DNA from: Lachnospiraceae bacterium
Lineage (GTDB): Bacteria > Bacillota > Clostridia > Lachnospirales > Lachnospiraceae
Reading direction: 5' to 3'
Length of the DNA: 64,000 nt
NCBI GenBank assembly: GCA_024403455.1
Contig: JAKSRR010000008.1
Location: forward strand, 42,005-106,004
Positions 3,487-58,620 of the stretch are shown here, piece by piece. The translations under genes were made by a program, and so were the position numbers. The notes below the pieces were generated by a model. The model had not been told where the DNA came from, did not search any database, and saw only the letters and a list, made by a program, of their open reading frames with translations. The first letter of the stretch is position 1. Each line of letters opens with the position of its first letter.

Positions 3487-3544
3487 CCTTGTATGCCCCT
3501 TTCTGTAAAATACCTTCTAACACTATTTTATCAAATAATGTTGC

Positions 3545-3757
3545 CATATGCATTATTCTCTTCAGTAGGAAAGAATGGCGCCACATGCATTATTCTCTCT
3601 TCAGGTGGAAAGAATGGTGCCACATGCATTATTCTCTTCAGTAGGAAAGAATGACGCCCCATGCATTATCCTCTCTTCAGTCAGAAAGAATAACGCCCCA
3701 TGCATTATCCTCTCTTCGGTCAGAAAAGAATATTCCCTCAGAGAGGATAATGATGGG
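3545..3757. repeat. Five tandem 37-39 bp imperfect repeats ending in an inverted copy
   Basis: This block lies in the 324-bp gap 3487-3810 between the deaminase start and the cation-transporter stop. Copies start at 3545, 3582, 3621, 3658 and 3697 and share CATGCATTAT, then CTCTTCAGT or CTCTTCGGT, then GAAAGAAT and GCC- or CCC-type ends. Lengths alternate 37, 39, 37, 39, 39. At 3740-3757 the start of the unit recurs inverted, so copy 5 can fold into a roughly 18-bp hairpin with it. A second hairpin (3796-3805 with 3815-3824) spans the transporter stop codon. Short open frames run through the repeats but have no ribosome-binding site. Confidence 0.85.
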
Positions 3758-3810
3758 GCTATATAAACTAGATATATATACGTTAGCCCAAACGACCTAG
3801 GGAGATGAAT

Positions 3811-20099: not shown

Positions 20100-20156
20100 A
20101 AAATCTCCCTAAAGGATTCTGTGTTTACACATCATCCGATTAGGGAGATTTTCTTT
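20100..20156. terminator. Bidirectional terminator between chaperone and sugar locus
   Basis: A 13-bp stem (AAAATCTCCCTAA with TTAGGGAGATTTT) encloses an inner hairpin (GGAT-TGTG with CACA-ATCC). A-rich and T-rich flanks on both sides allow termination of the plus-strand chaperone gene and the minus-strand isomerase operon, which converge here. A second hairpin without T-run (TTGATGAGC 20073-20081 with GCTCATCAA 20084-20092) lies just upstream. Confidence 0.88.
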
Positions 20157-34374: not shown

Positions 34375-34493
34375 ACACAGAAAAGGTTGCCCCTCAGTCA
34401 AAAACATATTCCTTCGTAGTTATACTCGCCCAGCGCAGAAAAGGTTGCCTCTCAGTCAAAAACATATTCCTTCGTGGCAATCCTTTTCTGTGC
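34375..34493. repeat. Two adjacent copies of a dispersed hairpin repeat
   Basis: Copy 1 begins ACACAGAAAAGGTTGCC at 34375 and copy 2 GCGCAGAAAAGGTTGCC at 34433. Each is followed by the same 25-nt block (34393-34417 and 34451-34475). Copy 2 is complete: its right arm GGCAATCCTTTTCTGTGC (34476-34493) pairs with its left arm over about 17 bp with a single bulge. Copy 1 lacks a matching right arm, though its left arm can also pair with the right arm of copy 2. A third copy is at 40005-40065. Confidence 0.85.
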
Positions 34494-34570
34494 AGGGCTC
34501 GGAGATTATGTAATAAGCAAATGCAATCACATAGTTTTGGAAAAACATTTTATACATTCATTTTTCGCAC

Positions 34571-34602
34571 AAAAAAATCCCCCTCCATCAGGAGGGGGAT
34601 TT
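34571..34602 (-). terminator. Intrinsic terminator of the surface-protein gene
   Basis: AAATCCCCCTCC and GGAGGGGGATTT form a GC-rich 12-bp stem with an ATCA loop. On the minus strand a run of seven T follows. It lies 22 nt after the surface-protein stop. Confidence 0.92.
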
Positions 34603-34623
34603 AGATTTAAGATTGAGACCTAA

Positions 34624-36399
34624 TTAGTCTTCTTTCTTTTTCTTGGATGCAGTAACACCAGCAGCGATACCGCCACCAACTACAACTACACCACCGCCGA
34701 TGATACCTGCAAGAGCACCGGTAGAAAGACCCTTCTTGCCTTCTTCCTTGTTCTCTTCCTCTACGGGAGCAGCCTCATCAGGAGTAGTCTCTTCTACCGC
34801 AGCAACAACTTCTGCATCATAGTTGAAACCAGAAACAGTAAAGGTAATTTCGATATCAGTTACAGGAACAGGATAGTAACCAATTTCCTTAATGTCTGCA
34901 TCCCAAGCATTCTGTAACTGAACACTGATGTAATCAACATTCTCATCAGGAATCTTTACAGTGCTGAGAGATACTTCCATACCATTTACAAGAAGCTTAA
35001 TATCAGAGAAGGTGATTGCATCTGTGTAAGGAATATCAGTAGAGAAGAAAATCAAGTTCATGCATTCCTGAGCGTCAAAGTCACCTTCTAAGTCAAGGCC
35101 AGTAGCCTTAACAGTGTAGGTACCGTTACCTGCGATAGTAACATCAGTGAACTCACCAGCTCTAACAACTGCGTTGTTATCAGCATCCCAACCAGTTACC
35201 TGATTGAAGTACTCAGTAGCCATACCATAGTTAGGCTCGAACCATTCGTTACGGAAGGAGTAGGTAGGAGACTGTAAGCCGATGTATGCGTGATATTCGC
35301 CATCAAGATCAACTTCTGCAGTAGTATTATCAACTTCTGCTGCAGTTCCGAAGTCACCAGCGTTTTCTACAACGAAGGTTACTTCAAGTTCTTTACAAGT
35401 GGTAGCCTGAGGTACAAGACGTGCGGTACAATCAAGAACAGATCCATCTGCACATCTGCAATCAGCAAAACCATCACCGGAAATATCCTCGTTAGGATCA
35501 TTCCAAGAGTTGTAAATGTTAACACGAGTGGTTACTGCAGCGCCATCAGCGGAGCAGGTGTAGGAAGAGCCTTCCATAACTTCTTCACCATCAGCCTTAA
35601 TGGAAGTGATGGTTACAGTATAGATACGACCAAACTTAAGCTCGCCGTTCTCGATCTCAAGTGCATTGAAATCACCAAGTTCGAAATCATCAGCGCTGGT
35701 AGCCTTAATGGTGTACTCGCCGTCGCCTTCAATCAGAACTTCTTCACTTTCCATCTGCGCAGACCAATCTGCAGTATTGGTGTTCAGTCTTGCAAAAACA
35801 TCACCTTCGAATACTTCTGCTTCAGAAGATGTATCAACAGGAGTACCTTCTTCGAATGCATTTGCAACAACGAAGGTTACTTCAAGTTCAGAGCAGGTAG
35901 TTGCCTGAGGTACAAGACGTGCGGTGCAGTCAAGAACGGATCCTTCTGCACATCTGCAATCCTGATATCCGTCTTTGGAAATATCCTCGTTAGGATCATT
36001 CCAAGAGTTGTAAATATTAACACGGGTAGTTACAGCGCCACCGTCAGCAGAACAGGTATAGGAATCACCTTCCATGATTTCCTTTCCATCTGCCTTGATG
36101 GAAGTAATGGTTACAGTGTAAACACGACCGAAGGTAGTTTCACCATCAGCGATCTCAAGAGCATTGAAATCACCAAGTTCAAACTCTCCGTCATAGGTAG
36201 CCTTAATGGTGTATTCACCATCTCCGGTAACCTCTACAGACTCAGACTCCATCGATGCGGACCAGTCAGCAGTGTTGGTGTTTAAGGTTGCGGTGCAAGA
36301 ATCTGCAGCATTTGCAGAGATTGCAGGAATCCCTAAAGCTCCCAGCGTAAGTGCTGCGGCGCTGAAAAGAGCAAGGCCTTTTTTAAGCATTCTTTTCAT
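34624..36399 (-). CDS. Secreted, membrane-anchored surface protein with three repeat domains
   Basis: A 591-residue protein of unknown function. A signal peptide (1-31, cleavage after ANA) is followed by two near-identical domains (36-178 and 203-343) and a clearly related but diverged third (about 370-523). Each has the pattern GDGEYTIKAT, a DFNAL-like strand, VTITSIKADGKE, YNSWNDPNEDI and ELEVTFVV. The first two carry paired Cys residues (SYTCSAD, DCRCAEGSVLDC, TTCSEL), suggesting disulfides. An acidic Pro/Glu linker precedes a Gly/Val-rich membrane segment and a KKKKED tail; there is no LPxTG sorting motif. Its place in the sugar locus suggests glycan binding at the cell surface, which is inference. 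Confidence 0.8.
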   Translation of the reverse strand: MKRMLKKGLALFSAAALTLGALGIPAISANAADSCTATLNTNTADWSASMESESVEVTGDGEYTIKATYDGEFELGDFNALEIADGETTFGRVYTVTITSIKADGKEIMEGDSYTCSADGGAVTTRVNIYNSWNDPNEDISKDGYQDCRCAEGSVLDCTARLVPQATTCSELEVTFVVANAFEEGTPVDTSSEAEVFEGDVFARLNTNTADWSAQMESEEVLIEGDGEYTIKATSADDFELGDFNALEIENGELKFGRIYTVTITSIKADGEEVMEGSSYTCSADGAAVTTRVNIYNSWNDPNEDISGDGFADCRCADGSVLDCTARLVPQATTCKELEVTFVVENAGDFGTAAEVDNTTAEVDLDGEYHAYIGLQSPTYSFRNEWFEPNYGMATEYFNQVTGWDADNNAVVRAGEFTDVTIAGNGTYTVKATGLDLEGDFDAQECMNLIFFSTDIPYTDAITFSDIKLLVNGMEVSLSTVKIPDENVDYISVQLQNAWDADIKEIGYYPVPVTDIEITFTVSGFNYDAEVVAAVEETTPDEAAPVEEENKEEGKKGLSTGALAGIIGGGVVVVGGGIAAGVTASKKKKED

Positions 36400-36565
36400 C
36401 TTTTTCTCTCCTTTTCTTGTTGTGTTCTTTTAGAACAATAGTTATATGCCTAACGCATTGTAAAAATTGTAACAAAGCACAGCGCATATGTTTACCATAG
36501 AAATTGAACTTTTTTGCCTAGTTTTTTAGCCACTAAAAAACAAAAAAGAATTACTATTTGTTTCT

Positions 36566-38356
36566 CTACGCATTCTGTAAGGGCATGGTAATTTCTACTG
36601 TAGTGCCCTGTCCCTCCACGCTCTTAAAAACAACACCATACGATTCCCCGTACTTTAGCTTGATACGCTGGTTAACATTGCAAATACCAATATGACTGCG
36701 ATCTAGATGTTCTGTATCATTTAGATTATTCATAATTTCTGTCAGAGTATCTGCATCCATACCATGACCGTTATCCTCAATCTTCAGCGTTAATAGCTCC
36801 TCACCAAAGTCTGCAGTAACCGTAATGAGCCCCCCCTCATCCACTTCCTCCATGGCATGCACATAAGCATTCTCCACAAAAGGCTGAATAACAAAGGGCA
36901 TAATCACATACTGTAGTGCCTTTTCTTTATCGTACTTAATTTCTGTCCTAATACGATCTTCAAAACGATAATTCTGAATGGTAATATAGCTCTCAACCAT
37001 TTCCATTTCCCACGCTACCGTTTTCAGTGTATTTCCAACATCTAAGCTTTTTCTAAGGAACTGCGTTAAAGCAACGGAAATTTCTTCAATCTCGGGTTGA
37101 TTTCCAATGCAGGCAAGCATGTGTATATTTTCCAGCGTATTGTACAAAAAGTGGGGATTAATTTGGGTTGCCAGCATTTTCAGTTCTACATCTTTCTGCC
37201 TAGAGTAGATCTGTTCTTCTTTTAATCTTGCCCTGGACTGGGCTTCCGTCAAATCTTTAATGGATGCAATCATACTTTCCAAATCATGGTAACAATCATA
37301 AATTTCATCCCTGGCAGATCCAATCTCTTTATCATTTTCTACAGGTCTTCCCTCGGCTGCCTCATGCATAGCCTTACTAAAGGCCCCCATTCGTCTTGCG
37401 AGCCATCTGGATAAGATAAAAATAACCGCAATGGTTAACCCTACGCAAAACAGCAGTGGCGCAAAGGTTCTCATGGTTGATACATTAGCATTTTTCAGAA
37501 AACTCTTATACGGAGTCAGTGTCAACAAGGTGTACTTATCCTCCGAATAATTAGACTTTGCCTCTGCAAAAGAAATGATATATTTCTTACCATTCCAATA
37601 CGTTGTAGCAGCGCCCTTACTTTCACGCAACTGACTCACCAGTGCAAGAATCTCCTGCTCAGAAACATCCGGCAAAGGATTTACCAATTTCTCATCATTC
37701 AAAATCAGCATAGAGAGTTTATCTTCCATACTGCTGTTTGCAAAGTATGACTCCGTTAATTCTGCATCGAGAGAGATACAAAGAACGCACTGTTTGCCGC
37801 TTCTTCCAATGCCCTTACTAAGGCAACGAGCCATACTGAGGGACTTTCTTCCCGTCTGCACATTGGTACGATAATACCAGCTAGGTCCGTCCGATTCCAT
37901 TACATTTACGAACCATTCCTTTTCCCGAATAATATCGGTAATCAACTTAAAACGTCTATTATCGATACGCTGTGCATCTGCAATGTATAACGTCACATCC
38001 TCTACGCCCTCATAATGCGTCGTAAAGTATGATTTAAGTTTCTCATAATCCTGGTATCCAACGGAAATCAGCACTTCATCATAGTCAGAAAGAACAATGT
38101 GCATTTCATCTTCATCATAGGAAATCTTATAGGACAAATCCACAGCGTTGGCCATGGCCTTCTCTATATCTGCTGTTTGCTTTTCCAGTGTTTTCCGCTC
38201 ATCCGTTACATACCGCTCCACCAAAATCTCTCTGGACATATGGTAGCTATACAAAAAGACAATAAGAATAGGAAGCAAACAACCAACGCCATATACAAGA
38301 ATAAGGCGTTGGCTGATTTTTAGTTTCGAAAAAAAGTGCTTAGGGTTCTTATTCAT
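36566..38356 (-). CDS. Sensor histidine kinase (YesM family)
   Basis: A 596-residue membrane kinase. Membrane segments near residues 17-37 and about 295-315 flank an extracellular sensor of roughly 260 residues, followed by a HAMP-like linker. The phosphoacceptor box is INPHFLYNTLENIHML and the ATP-binding domain has VENAYVHAME (N-box) and IEDNGHGMD (G1-box). This is the His_kinase-type family that pairs with YesN-like regulators, here the gene at 26271. It is encoded 22 nt after the fucosidase gene, in the same transcript. Confidence 0.94.
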   Translation of the reverse strand: MNKNPKHFFSKLKISQRLILVYGVGCLLPILIVFLYSYHMSREILVERYVTDERKTLEKQTADIEKAMANAVDLSYKISYDEDEMHIVLSDYDEVLISVGYQDYEKLKSYFTTHYEGVEDVTLYIADAQRIDNRRFKLITDIIREKEWFVNVMESDGPSWYYRTNVQTGRKSLSMARCLSKGIGRSGKQCVLCISLDAELTESYFANSSMEDKLSMLILNDEKLVNPLPDVSEQEILALVSQLRESKGAATTYWNGKKYIISFAEAKSNYSEDKYTLLTLTPYKSFLKNANVSTMRTFAPLLFCVGLTIAVIFILSRWLARRMGAFSKAMHEAAEGRPVENDKEIGSARDEIYDCYHDLESMIASIKDLTEAQSRARLKEEQIYSRQKDVELKMLATQINPHFLYNTLENIHMLACIGNQPEIEEISVALTQFLRKSLDVGNTLKTVAWEMEMVESYITIQNYRFEDRIRTEIKYDKEKALQYVIMPFVIQPFVENAYVHAMEEVDEGGLITVTADFGEELLTLKIEDNGHGMDADTLTEIMNNLNDTEHLDRSHIGICNVNQRIKLKYGESYGVVFKSVEGQGTTVEITMPLQNA

Positions 38357-38378
38357 TTCCGGTTCCTTATACAGAATT

Positions 38379-39842
38379 TTATGCCATCTCTATTTTAATA
38401 CAAACCGGGTAAGGACTGCTAACATCTTCTGCAGTAAACACGAGGCCATCCTCCGTAATAGAAAAGTCCACATCGTCTTGGAATCCCAAAATGGAAACGC
38501 GGCGAATAATACCATGGAACTCTGGTCTATTCTGATCGGCAGACTTTTTCAGAGAAGTGATACAAACTCTGCCATCCTTTGGGTACTGCATGGCAAAGGC
38601 ATAGATACTGCTACCCTTACAGGTAAACTTGAAATCTTTCTCTGTAAATGATTTCTTCCCGTCTGTAAATTGCCCTTCTACTTCTTCTGTCGGGCCTTCC
38701 TTACATTTTCTCCAGGTCTGGCTCTCCTTAATAGCTTCCCCATTGACCTTCATCCACTTGCCAATTTCTTTCAAAATATGTGTATCACCCTCTGGAATAG
38801 AACCATCGCCCTTCGGACCAACATTAAGAAGCAGATTTCCATTTTTACTAACCACATCAATCAGCATGCAAATAATATCGTAGGGCGTTTTGTAATCCAG
38901 CGTATCTGTGTAACACCAAGAATTATGTGCTACCGCCGTGTCCGTCTGCCATACATAGGGCTTCGGGTCCTTAAATCCGCCCCTCTCCACTTCCACGATT
39001 CCCATACCAAAAGGAATTGCATCATGCTTATAACAAATGGCAACATTCTTTCCCCATTCTACGGAGCGATTATAATAATATGCCATCAGTTTCTTCAGAT
39101 GTTTCTTAAACGCTTCATGCTGCACCCACCAATCAAAATACAAAAGTGCCGGCTGATACTGATCAATGATTTCACAAACACGAATCAGCCAATCGTTCAA
39201 AAATTCTTCTGAAGGATAGGGCTCACTATAAAGATCTTCATTGTCAGGTTCCGGCATCGCAGGCCAGTAAAAATCGCCTCTCTGCATAGGTTCTTTTATA
39301 TCACTATCAAATTCTTTGCCATGGCCCATGAACCACCAATGTTCCGCACGGTGATTTGAAGTACAAAATACCATGTTCTGCTTTTCTGCAGCTGTCCGAA
39401 GTTCTCCTAACACATCCCTCTTCGGCCCCATTTCGGCAGCATTATAATGACTGATGTCGCTTCGGTACATTTGAAATCCATCATGATGTTCAGATACAGG
39501 AAAAAGATACTCTGCCCCGGCTTCCTTAAAAAGTTCCACCCAAGCGTCTGCATCAAACTTCTCTGCCGTAAACATTGGAATAAAATCCTTATAGCCAAAC
39601 TTGCTTTGCGGTCCATAAGTCTTTACATGGTGCTCAAATGCCGGATATCCATCAATATACATATTTCTGGAATACCATTCATTGGAATTGGCTGCCACGG
39701 AATAGAGTCCCCAATGCACAAAAATACCAAACTTTGCCTTAGGGAACCAGGATGGTTTCTCCATTTTTGAGAGACTTTCCCAATCCGCTTTGTAGGGTCC
39801 CATTGCAATTACATCTTCTATTTTCTTCAAGTATGCTTCCAT
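38379..39842 (-). CDS. Alpha-L-fucosidase (GH29)
   Basis: A 487-residue glycosidase with no signal peptide, thus cytoplasmic. GH29 marks are WFPKAKFGIFVHWGLYSV (32-49), SEHHDGF with His119-His120-Asp121, and the predicted nucleophile Asp237 in LLYFDWW. A beta-sandwich C-terminal domain follows from about residue 360. It would remove terminal fucose from imported oligosaccharides. Together with the GH31 alpha-xylosidase this is the pairing expected for fucosylated xyloglucan fragments, though fucosylated host glycans are an alternative. Confidence 0.92.
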   Translation of the reverse strand: MEAYLKKIEDVIAMGPYKADWESLSKMEKPSWFPKAKFGIFVHWGLYSVAANSNEWYSRNMYIDGYPAFEHHVKTYGPQSKFGYKDFIPMFTAEKFDADAWVELFKEAGAEYLFPVSEHHDGFQMYRSDISHYNAAEMGPKRDVLGELRTAAEKQNMVFCTSNHRAEHWWFMGHGKEFDSDIKEPMQRGDFYWPAMPEPDNEDLYSEPYPSEEFLNDWLIRVCEIIDQYQPALLYFDWWVQHEAFKKHLKKLMAYYYNRSVEWGKNVAICYKHDAIPFGMGIVEVERGGFKDPKPYVWQTDTAVAHNSWCYTDTLDYKTPYDIICMLIDVVSKNGNLLLNVGPKGDGSIPEGDTHILKEIGKWMKVNGEAIKESQTWRKCKEGPTEEVEGQFTDGKKSFTEKDFKFTCKGSSIYAFAMQYPKDGRVCITSLKKSADQNRPEFHGIIRRVSILGFQDDVDFSITEDGLVFTAEDVSSPYPVCIKIEMA

Positions 39843-40004
39843 AGATTGTCCTCTTTCCTTTAGTGGCAGAAATCATTTTTGCAGTTCCGTCATAAAACCA
39901 CCAGCCAAATATTTCTATAGTGAAAATAGTAAGGTATTTTATGCTTGTTTTCTACCTATTTTTCTTTACCTCTTTGCCCTAAAATATTGGCATATGTTGG
40001 TTAT

Positions 40005-40065
40005 ACACGGAAAAGTATGCCCCTCAGTCAAAAACATATTCCTTCGTGGCATGCCTTTTCCGTGT
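40005..40065. repeat. Third copy of the dispersed hairpin repeat, upstream of the GH43 gene
   Basis: The left arm ACACGGAAAAGTATGCC (40005-40021) pairs with the right arm GGCATGCCTTTTCCGTGT (40048-40065). The loop block at 40023-40047 is identical over 25 nt to the two copies at 34393 and 34451. Stem bases that differ from those copies change on both arms. The element ends 29 nt before the GH43 start and is probably in its 5' untranslated region. Confidence 0.88.
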
Positions 40066-56664: not shown

Positions 56665-58620
56665 TTAGAATCCTCTATTAAATCCGTTTGGCTGCGGTGC
56701 TGCTCCTGTCGGAGGCGCCTGCATTCCAAATGCCGGATTAAACTGCGGAGCCATTGGCGCAGAACCACCAAGCATGGGGTTCGGTGCATAAGACGGATTC
56801 ATCGGTCTTGCACCACCAAGCATAGGATTCGGTGCATATCCACCTGCTGCATAGGCACTGCCAGGAAATACCGGTGCAAATGCCACGTCCGGCTTCTTCG
56901 GCTGATTCAAGCTAGGTGAATCAAAAATCGGCGCTGCAGGTGCTGCTGGTGCCTGACCAAATGCTGGAGGCAACGGTGCAGTGAGCTGCACAGGTGCTGC
57001 TGGATTAAAGGGCGCCGGTGCAGGTGCAACCATCTGCGGTGCTTGTGGAAGAGGCGGTGGTGCGATGGGACGCACGGGAGCAGCCATTCCACCACCTGGC
57101 GTATCCATAGGTGTAGGTGCACTCGGTGTAGGAACCGAAACTGACGGGGTACTTACTGGTACGCGATTGGTAAATGCTGATACCATAGGCGCACTCGGTG
57201 CTGCGGGTGCTGCAGAAAAGCTGGTTGCCGCAGGCATAGGAGCTACAGAAATTGGTGCAGTAGGTACACGATTTGCAAAACCACCATTTAAAGCTGGTGA
57301 GTCAAAAATTGGAGCTGCAGGTGCGGAAGGTGCAGTAGGCACACTATTTGCAAAGCCTCCGTTCAGAGCCGGTGAATCGAAAATCGGGGCTGCAGGTGCG
57401 GAAGGTGCAGTAGGCACACTATTTGCAAAGCCTCCGTTCAGAGCCGGTGAATCGAAAATCGGCGCTGCGGGTGCAGAAGGTGCGGTGGGCACGCTGTTTG
57501 CAAAGCCTCCATTGAGAGCCGGTGAATCAAAGATCGGTTCTGCCGGTGCTACTGGCGTTGAAGCCACAGGCACACTATTTGCAATACTATTATTCAAGGA
57601 TGGCGAATCAAATACAGGGGCTGCAGGAACCGGTGCAACAGGTGCAGCTACAGAGACGCTCGCTGCAGGAGCACTAACACTAGCTGCTGCTGTATTTAAC
57701 AGTGGTGAATCAAACTGAGGTTCTTCCTTTGCCACAGAAATAACACCACCAGGAATCGATGCCGCGGGTGCTGCAGATGCCGCCGGTGTGGCCGGCTTTA
57801 CATAGTTCGGATCATAAGCAGGCAAATTCGCAGATGACGAAGGTGCTCTGTATGCAAACTTTGACTTGAATTTCGGTTTCTCATAAGTAGCATATGCTGG
57901 CGCACTTGCACTTTCAGATACTGCCGCTGTACTTTCTACAGGCGTTTCTGTAGGAGTATCAAAGATAGAAGCAGACTCCTGTACTGGAGATTCAGAAACT
58001 GATTCAAATATAGAAGCAGGTTCCTGTACCGGAGATTCAGAAACTGATTCAAATATAGAAGCAGGCTCCTCTGCTGGTGCAGCTGGAATCGTGTCAAAAA
58101 TACTGCTTTCCTTCACTGGTTCAGCCTCTGCTACTGGTTCCACCGGCATCACTGGCTTTCCAACCTCTCTAAAGGAAGTACCGCCTACTGTCACGCTTTC
58201 AGAAACAGTAAAGGCAGGTGCCGCTGCAGGTGCAGGCGCTACTGGAGCTGCCGGCATGGGAGCTGCAGAAATAACACTTCCTCCAAGTGGCACACTTTCC
58301 ATCTTGGGAACTGCGGGAGCGACAGGAACTGCAGGCATCACTGGCATAGCCGGCGCTTCTTCCTGCTTCTGAGCATTCAGCATCGGAGAATCAAAAGTCA
58401 CCTCCGGTACAGGCTGGGAAGCAGACAGGAAATCAAGCTGCACAGATGCACTCGATGTCTTGCTGTTGTTATATACAGAACCAAGGGCAATGGCACCAGA
58501 GTCACCACCCTTCTTTTTCATTTCTTTAATATGTTTGCGAACATCCTCCCCACAACCTGGGCATTTCTTAGCTGACTCATCAATCAGCCTTCTGCACACG
58601 GGGCATTCAAACATTGCCAT
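56665..58620 (-). CDS. Zinc-ribbon protein with long Pro/Ala-rich repeat region
   Basis: A 651-residue protein of unknown function. The first 45 residues form a zinc ribbon (FECPVCRRLI and KKCPGCGED) followed by a basic helix (KHIKEMKKKGG). The rest is low complexity and rich in Ala, Pro, Val and Ser, with no membrane segment or signal. It includes short acidic repeats (SIFESVSESPVQE) and a recurring IFDSPALN/FDSPLLN motif seen about a dozen times, partly in perfect 25-residue tandem copies. The end is Gly/Met/Asn-rich (YAPNPMLGG repeated). FDSP-type motifs might be linear binding or phosphorylation sites. Confidence 0.75.
   Translation of the reverse strand: MAMFECPVCRRLIDESAKKCPGCGEDVRKHIKEMKKKGGDSGAIALGSVYNNSKTSSASVQLDFLSASQPVPEVTFDSPMLNAQKQEEAPAMPVMPAVPVAPAVPKMESVPLGGSVISAAPMPAAPVAPAPAAAPAFTVSESVTVGGTSFREVGKPVMPVEPVAEAEPVKESSIFDTIPAAPAEEPASIFESVSESPVQEPASIFESVSESPVQESASIFDTPTETPVESTAAVSESASAPAYATYEKPKFKSKFAYRAPSSSANLPAYDPNYVKPATPAASAAPAASIPGGVISVAKEEPQFDSPLLNTAAASVSAPAASVSVAAPVAPVPAAPVFDSPSLNNSIANSVPVASTPVAPAEPIFDSPALNGGFANSVPTAPSAPAAPIFDSPALNGGFANSVPTAPSAPAAPIFDSPALNGGFANSVPTAPSAPAAPIFDSPALNGGFANRVPTAPISVAPMPAATSFSAAPAAPSAPMVSAFTNRVPVSTPSVSVPTPSAPTPMDTPGGGMAAPVRPIAPPPLPQAPQMVAPAPAPFNPAAPVQLTAPLPPAFGQAPAAPAAPIFDSPSLNQPKKPDVAFAPVFPGSAYAAGGYAPNPMLGGARPMNPSYAPNPMLGGSAPMAPQFNPAFGMQAPPTGAAPQPNGFNRGF
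57254..57560. repeat. 75-bp tandem repeats inside the zinc-ribbon gene
   Basis: Full units at 57296-57370, 57371-57445 and 57446-57520 are flanked by partial copies. Units 1 and 2 differ at only a few bases, unit 3 at more. Each encodes 25 residues including IFDSPALNGGFANSVP. Recent amplification is likely. Confidence 0.9.
57959..58075. repeat. 45-bp tandem repeats inside the zinc-ribbon gene
   Basis: Two nearly identical 45-bp units (57986-58030 and 58031-58075) follow a partial one. They encode 15-residue acidic repeats (SIFESVSESPVQEPA). Confidence 0.85.

Follow-up and report, generated by a model that had tools for sequence, protein, structure and literature searches.

What keeps the two arms of a hairpin complementary when their sequence changes from one copy to the next around a shared loop? 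The question is raised by a 64,000-nucleotide stretch of a Lachnospiraceae bacterium genome (contig JAKSRR010000008.1 of assembly GCA_024403455.1, positions 42,005 to 106,004, hereafter the window), in which three copies of a short element carry the same 25-nt block, namely CTCAGTCAAAAACATATTCCTTCGT. In the two complete copies, inspection of the sequence shows arms pairing as GCGCAG/CTGTGC and ACACGG/CCGTGT, as well as TTGCC/GGCAA and ATGCC/GGCAT, while the third consists of the 5' arm and the loop with no matching 3' arm. An earlier note on this DNA described the arrangement accurately, down to the incomplete copy, and took it as a sign of selection on an RNA or DNA structure, naming a regulatory RNA element, a protein target and a non-autonomous mobile hairpin as options. 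As argued below, these copies would belong to a family of non-autonomous DNA hairpins that are dispersed in the genome and specific to the lineage; the stems would be made and kept paired by DNA copying and the loop would be recognised, a reading that stands about an even chance of being right.

The search of the genome with a covariance model, as advocated in the earlier note, proved productive. Three models were used, built from four A copies (R1), 15 copies (R2) and 17 copies (R3), respectively. In the 2.23 Mb assembly, R3 retrieves 17 full hairpins at E 5.4e-5 or better and one half copy at E 0.007, bearing in mind that a model necessarily retrieves the copies from which it was built; as the assembly is 82% complete, further copies may exist. 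The hairpins fall into type A (n = 4), with the loop first described, type B (n = 11), with a related loop, and type C (n = 2), which is more diverged. Outside the window, the A loop occurs twice more, at C32:22761 and C1:165820 (the latter with 2 mismatches), with stems that are unlike those of the window copies and unlike each other but still paired. The R1 search brought in hairpins with the second type of loop, for which a pattern search with TC(A/G)(G/T)TCAGAAAAGAATATTC(C/A)(C/T)TC then gave the eleven B copies, one of which (B1) lies in the window and had escaped the earlier note, whereas the R2 search led to one type C copy on contig C12, the second one, adjoining it, being recognised by eye. 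Within the window, the 24-nt A loop pattern with at most 3 mismatches has three matches vs. none in 100 dinucleotide shuffles, and both A1 and A2 fold more stably than all 200 shuffles, be it as DNA or as RNA of either strand (z -5.3 to -7.6). When 185 kb, in stretches mostly picked for holding copies, were scanned for strong inverted repeats, 14 hairpins with loops of 22-27 nt emerged, of which 10 belong to the family, with five family copies there remaining below the threshold. Folding around GA(A/T)AT motifs, among the results listed, yielded mainly noise from coding sequence and was given no weight.

Across the 15 A and B copies, the conserved core is the loop of 22-24 nt together with, in B, the adjoining 4-7 bp. 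Read on the strand opposite to the one first described (the GA strand), the A hairpins run as stem-GA-AG-GA-AUAUGUUUUU-GA-CU-GA-stem, with one base different in A4, and most B copies, from a reading of the alignment, as stem-GA-RG-GA-AUAUUCUUUUCU-GA-CY-GA-stem. The two-base segments of the loop are able to pair and they covary, columns 23/42 being A-U in 7 copies, G-C in 7 and broken in 1; in the C copies these segments are GC/GC. The inner GA/GA was found in 17/17 hairpins by manual reading. Tandem G-A pairs, which are known to be stable in RNA as well as in DNA, are a candidate motif in the loop of this family. Regarding the stem, identity among the 11 B copies is 1.0 at positions 1-4 and 0.56-0.82 at positions 5-7, beyond which the 5' arm drops to 0.22-0.49 and the 3' arm to 0.24-0.67; the A copies show no variation at positions 4-6 of the 3' arm. 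The distal stems are locus-specific, yet largely paired.

This compensation between arms around a fixed loop turned out to be stronger than the earlier note had claimed. Among the copies of types A and B (n = 15), with both C hairpins and the half copy left out of the counts, 81.7% of 300 cells are paired vs. 54.2% upon shuffling and 39.3-54.4% upon sliding, covariation reaches 0.717 vs. 0.231 upon shuffling (0/500 shuffles as high) and 0.196-0.315 upon sliding, and 19 of the 20 pairs are changed on both sides. The inner 13 pairs amount to 173 Watson-Crick pairs, 6 G-U pairs and 16 mismatches. A regulatory RNA element, i.e. a transcribed hairpin with a loop bound by a protein or small RNA and pairing kept by selection, could account for such strong covariation, which extends inside the loop (columns 23/42), and for a nearly invariant loop. 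The make-up of the changes points elsewhere. The 800 pairwise stem differences, which are not independent of one another, comprise 245 double transitions, 305 double transversions, 39 one-sided changes and 211 involving a mismatch. As a control, the signal recognition particle (SRP) RNA of congeners, represented by 16 distinct sequences (17 high-scoring matches out of 34, one dropped as identical), gave 515 double transitions, 167 double transversions, 1051 one-sided changes and 73 with a mismatch, this last count being lowered by the retention of pairs that are gapless and at least 80% paired (71/83). Keeping in mind that the control compares orthologues and the hairpin set copies within one genome, and that the comparisons in the control are not independent either, one-sided changes make up 39/589 of the differences that preserve pairing in the hairpins vs. 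1051/1733 in SRP RNA, and 11/77 vs. 877/1443 where 20-40% of the pairs differ, while G-U accounts for 6/195 vs. 311/1136 cells. B4 and B7 for instance differ by one inner pair, C-G in one and A-T in the other. Folding of the 17 hairpins as DNA yielded 343 Watson-Crick and 6 G-T pairs, which was given no weight since the parameters disfavour G-T. As an RNA that evolves stepwise under selection would be expected to go through G-U frequently, whereas copying of one arm need not, the scarcity of G-U and one-sided changes favours copying. The step from compensation to RNA selection is not sustained: in its composition, the stem covariation looks unlike RNA evolution and resembles DNA copying.

How such copying may proceed can be sketched as follows. 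Each stem arm would arise, and stay matched to its partner, through DNA synthesis on the opposite arm as template, by fold-back or template switching at the hairpin during replication, and a change in one arm would either be transferred to the partner or be lost. Arrays of half units would result from slippage at this hairpin. Less certainly, the loop, that is GA-NN-GA...GA-N'N'-GA on one strand, would be recognised as a folded single strand by a factor involved in spreading or keeping the element, in which case the loop would be constrained and the stem would only have to pair. Copies of one hairpin half do adjoin 7 of the 17 hairpins, namely A1, B1, B6, B7, B9, B11 and A3, as found by manual reading. 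B1 terminates an array whose units of 37-39 nt combine the 5' arm with the first half of the loop, and the arrays of B7, B9 and B11 lie on the same side as that of B1; the array of B6 lies on the other side and holds the second loop half, a single half unit adjoins A1 and the units at A3 are less regular. With half units delimited by eye before identities were counted, those of B9 share 20/21 positions of the arm and 8-9/17 of the loop half with their hairpin, and those of B7 16-17/21 and 6-7/17, respectively, which suggests that the canonical loop may be kept, or brought in, only at the intact hairpin; B1 does not point that way.

The restricted distribution of the family is consistent with a lineage-specific element. 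Among 34 congeners, both the A loop at 2 mismatches and the B loop at 3 mismatches are absent, and R1 has matches at chance level only, with no paired copy: nine weak matches in 7 congeners (E 0.1-0.84), three of them partial matches of 19 nt, were rejected, none of the six inspected by eye being hairpin-like. In a family sample of 397 genomes from 334 genera, own genome included, R2 at E 0.01 matches the own genome only and no paired copy was found in the 396 others, under stricter filters that recover 12/17 of the full own copies and by which weak copies elsewhere could be missed. The sole A-loop match of this sample outside the own genome (L006, 3 mismatches) has unpaired flanks. In 84,980 species genomes, the A loop has 7 matches, none with paired flanks. 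Regarding viral contigs, the first A-loop match (L007) is flanked by unpaired sequence, the 6 matches to the A-type GA motif lack a paired stem and the B loop has no match; plasmids and phages queried with one B copy gave none either. For the B loop, the searches covered the genus, the family sample and the viral, plasmid and phage collections. At the dagK-MBL locus, where the gap is 382 nt, both genes can be aligned in 13 of 19 congener loci with gaps of 31-330 nt; these 13 gaps are without the loop and too diverged to reveal an insertion point.

From manual reading, all 17 hairpins are intergenic, the only overlaps concerning frames of 61-67 aa and starts extended upstream (A2 and B8, the gene start at B8 being judged by eye). 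The earlier note had placed both sites in the window beside sugar-locus transcripts and recommended looking for a conserved position relative to genes. Over the whole family, the neighbours identified with Pfam include permease, fucosidase and GH43 genes but also cytidine deaminase, cation efflux, ATP-grasp and diacylglycerol kinase genes, without common function and with hairpins in both orientations; with neighbouring genes so unrelated, sugar regulation is an unlikely role for the family. Still, A2, about 30 nt upstream of the probable start codon of GH43 (40095), could affect this gene. This position also speaks for the RNA element, as does the GA strand being sense in 8 of the 11 full hairpins with same-strand neighbours, although it is antisense in the other 3 and the bias is within chance; the other 6 full hairpins are in divergent, convergent or contig-end places. 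Besides, the window has no Rfam match at gathering score, and none of the 4 Rfam matches in eight hairpin loci is at a hairpin. Together with the composition of the stem changes, the disparate neighbours and the absence from the 34 congeners, this makes the regulatory RNA element unlikely. Rather unlikely as well is a DNA site at which an extruded or single-stranded hairpin would be bound by a host protein, e.g. in chromosome organisation or replication, with selection keeping the loop and pairing: orientation, intergenic position, Watson-Crick pairing and loop conservation all agree with it, but none was seen in the 34 congeners, and selection alone leaves the many transversion-type double changes and the half-unit arrays unexplained. 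As for decaying repeats or transcription terminators with no special mechanism, dispersion, intergenic position and some G+C-rich stems are all that would fit; decay would lose pairing, which 0/500 shuffles match, and most stems are not followed by a T-run (by eye), so that this explanation is very improbable.

Among the options of the earlier note, the non-autonomous mobile or self-propagating hairpin thus fits best, mobility being inferred because the copies are scattered in one lineage, but the expected marks of transposition did not accompany it. No target-site duplication was found at the 17 hairpins, flush direct repeats being 0-2 nt only. The stem ends differ between copies, leaving no constant terminal inverted repeats of the kind that defines a miniature inverted-repeat transposable element of a DDE transposon. 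An element of the repetitive extragenic palindrome (REP) type could be moved by the single Y1 transposase gene of the genome (C12:20563-20889, L090 / L091), which is above the Pfam cut-off and resembles a REP-associated tyrosine transposase (RAYT) but below the NCBIfam cut-off (55.2 vs. 80 bits). Nonetheless, the 14 kb around this gene hold no R3 match at E 1, no tetranucleotide of the GTAG or CGTC type is common to the hairpin feet (flanks of the 17 hairpins, by eye) and the stems vary from copy to copy, which renders this origin improbable; given the 82% completeness, another transposase gene may be missing from the assembly. A variant that may tentatively be entertained, if with some doubt, is a mobile single-stranded DNA hairpin inheriting only the loop core, which would prime fold-back synthesis on adjacent host DNA and thereby acquire a stem of local sequence. 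Several observations weigh against the preferred reading of DNA hairpins maintained by arm copying. Besides the lack of target-site duplication, no transposase linked to the hairpins and no propagating factor was identified, and no copying or insertion event was observed directly, the best congener being 78% identical in one flanking protein. Pairing is imperfect, as the mismatch-involving share of the stem differences testifies, and some stems are interrelated (A1 with A2; B2, B3, B6 and B7), hence not every stem is wholly new. Moreover, the B1 units keep the loop half (14-15/17) about as well as the arm (16-22/22), which shows that they give the loop no special status.

Dispersed hairpins with variable paired sequence also occur in fungal mitochondria, namely the double-hairpin elements, the structure of which consists of two hairpins. 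The family can further be compared with REP, BIME (bacterial interspersed mosaic element) and REPIN (REP doublet forming hairpins) sequences with their TnpA-REP (RAYT), which likewise are short palindromes dispersed between genes, in some cases grouped in clusters and confined to a single species; REPs are described as having a conserved tetranucleotide at the foot, GTAG in most cases, and stems and loops that are mostly short (PMC8266576, PMC3733652). Unlike REPs so described, the family conserves the loop instead of the foot or distal stem, and no linked RAYT was found, though REP elements lie near a RAYT gene in many systems but not in every one. Template switching can bring about compensatory changes by copying one arm off the other, as reported for rRNA and microRNA genes (Monttinen and Loytynoja 2022, PMC8794818); the compensatory changes of the present hairpins are explicable likewise, but here they affect a dispersed bacterial repeat and loop inversions, another sign of that process, are not seen. 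In having many well-preserved inverted repeats within a single genome, the family resembles the mitochondria of Nematomorpha, the perfect inverted repeats of which are located in coding regions, with no shared loop mentioned in the abstract (PMC6649704), whereas the hairpins of the family are intergenic and share theirs. In the open-access literature searched, no description of such an element was found. Dispersed palindromes are a known kind of element; what sets the family apart is the reversed conservation, with the loop kept and the stem free, together with the copying signature.

Table 1. Hairpins and derived units of the family in the window (window coordinates).
Feature	Coordinates	Strand	Remarks
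Hairpin A1, full	34432..34493	+	loop 34452-34473; outer pairing extends to about 34428-34498
Half copy (5' arm and loop, without matching 3' arm)	34375..34417	+	flanks unpaired
Hairpin A2, full	40004..40065	+	loop 40024-40045
Hairpin B1, full	3696..3759	+	loop 3716-3739, related to the A loop
Tandem units of 37-39 nt	3533..3700	+	each unit = B1 5' arm and first half of B1 loop

Other repeats and structures were noticed along the way. In the window, a hairpin at 20100-20152, between reading frames, has a perfect stem of 13 bp and a 27-nt loop unlike those of the A, B and C types; a gene at 34624-36399 (-), with no Pfam match above cut-off, contains two internal repeats of 300 nt that are 80% alike; and tandem repeats with periods of 75 and 45 are present at 57254-57549 and 57959-58077, respectively, within the reading frame 56665-58620. 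Elsewhere in the genome, another palindrome with loops of 4-8 nt occurs in several copies (GGGGACGGTCC... / AGGAGTGTCCCT...) at L088:11007-15712, more short hairpin-like repeats adjoin the two C copies at L108:7940-8012, and L087:1179-1304 (+) matches the Clostridiales-1 RNA of Rfam with 65.5 bits.

Changes that match across the two arms of a stem usually pass for proof that an RNA is functional, while the covariation in this family looks like the outcome of DNA copying. The make-up of the changes, namely few G-U pairs and many double changes of the transversion type, offers in this respect a simple filter against false RNA discoveries. The family also provides a natural set of hairpins, within one genome, for studying template switching. 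Beyond this, it may represent a novel type of mobile hairpin, for which the loop rather than the ends would be the defining feature.

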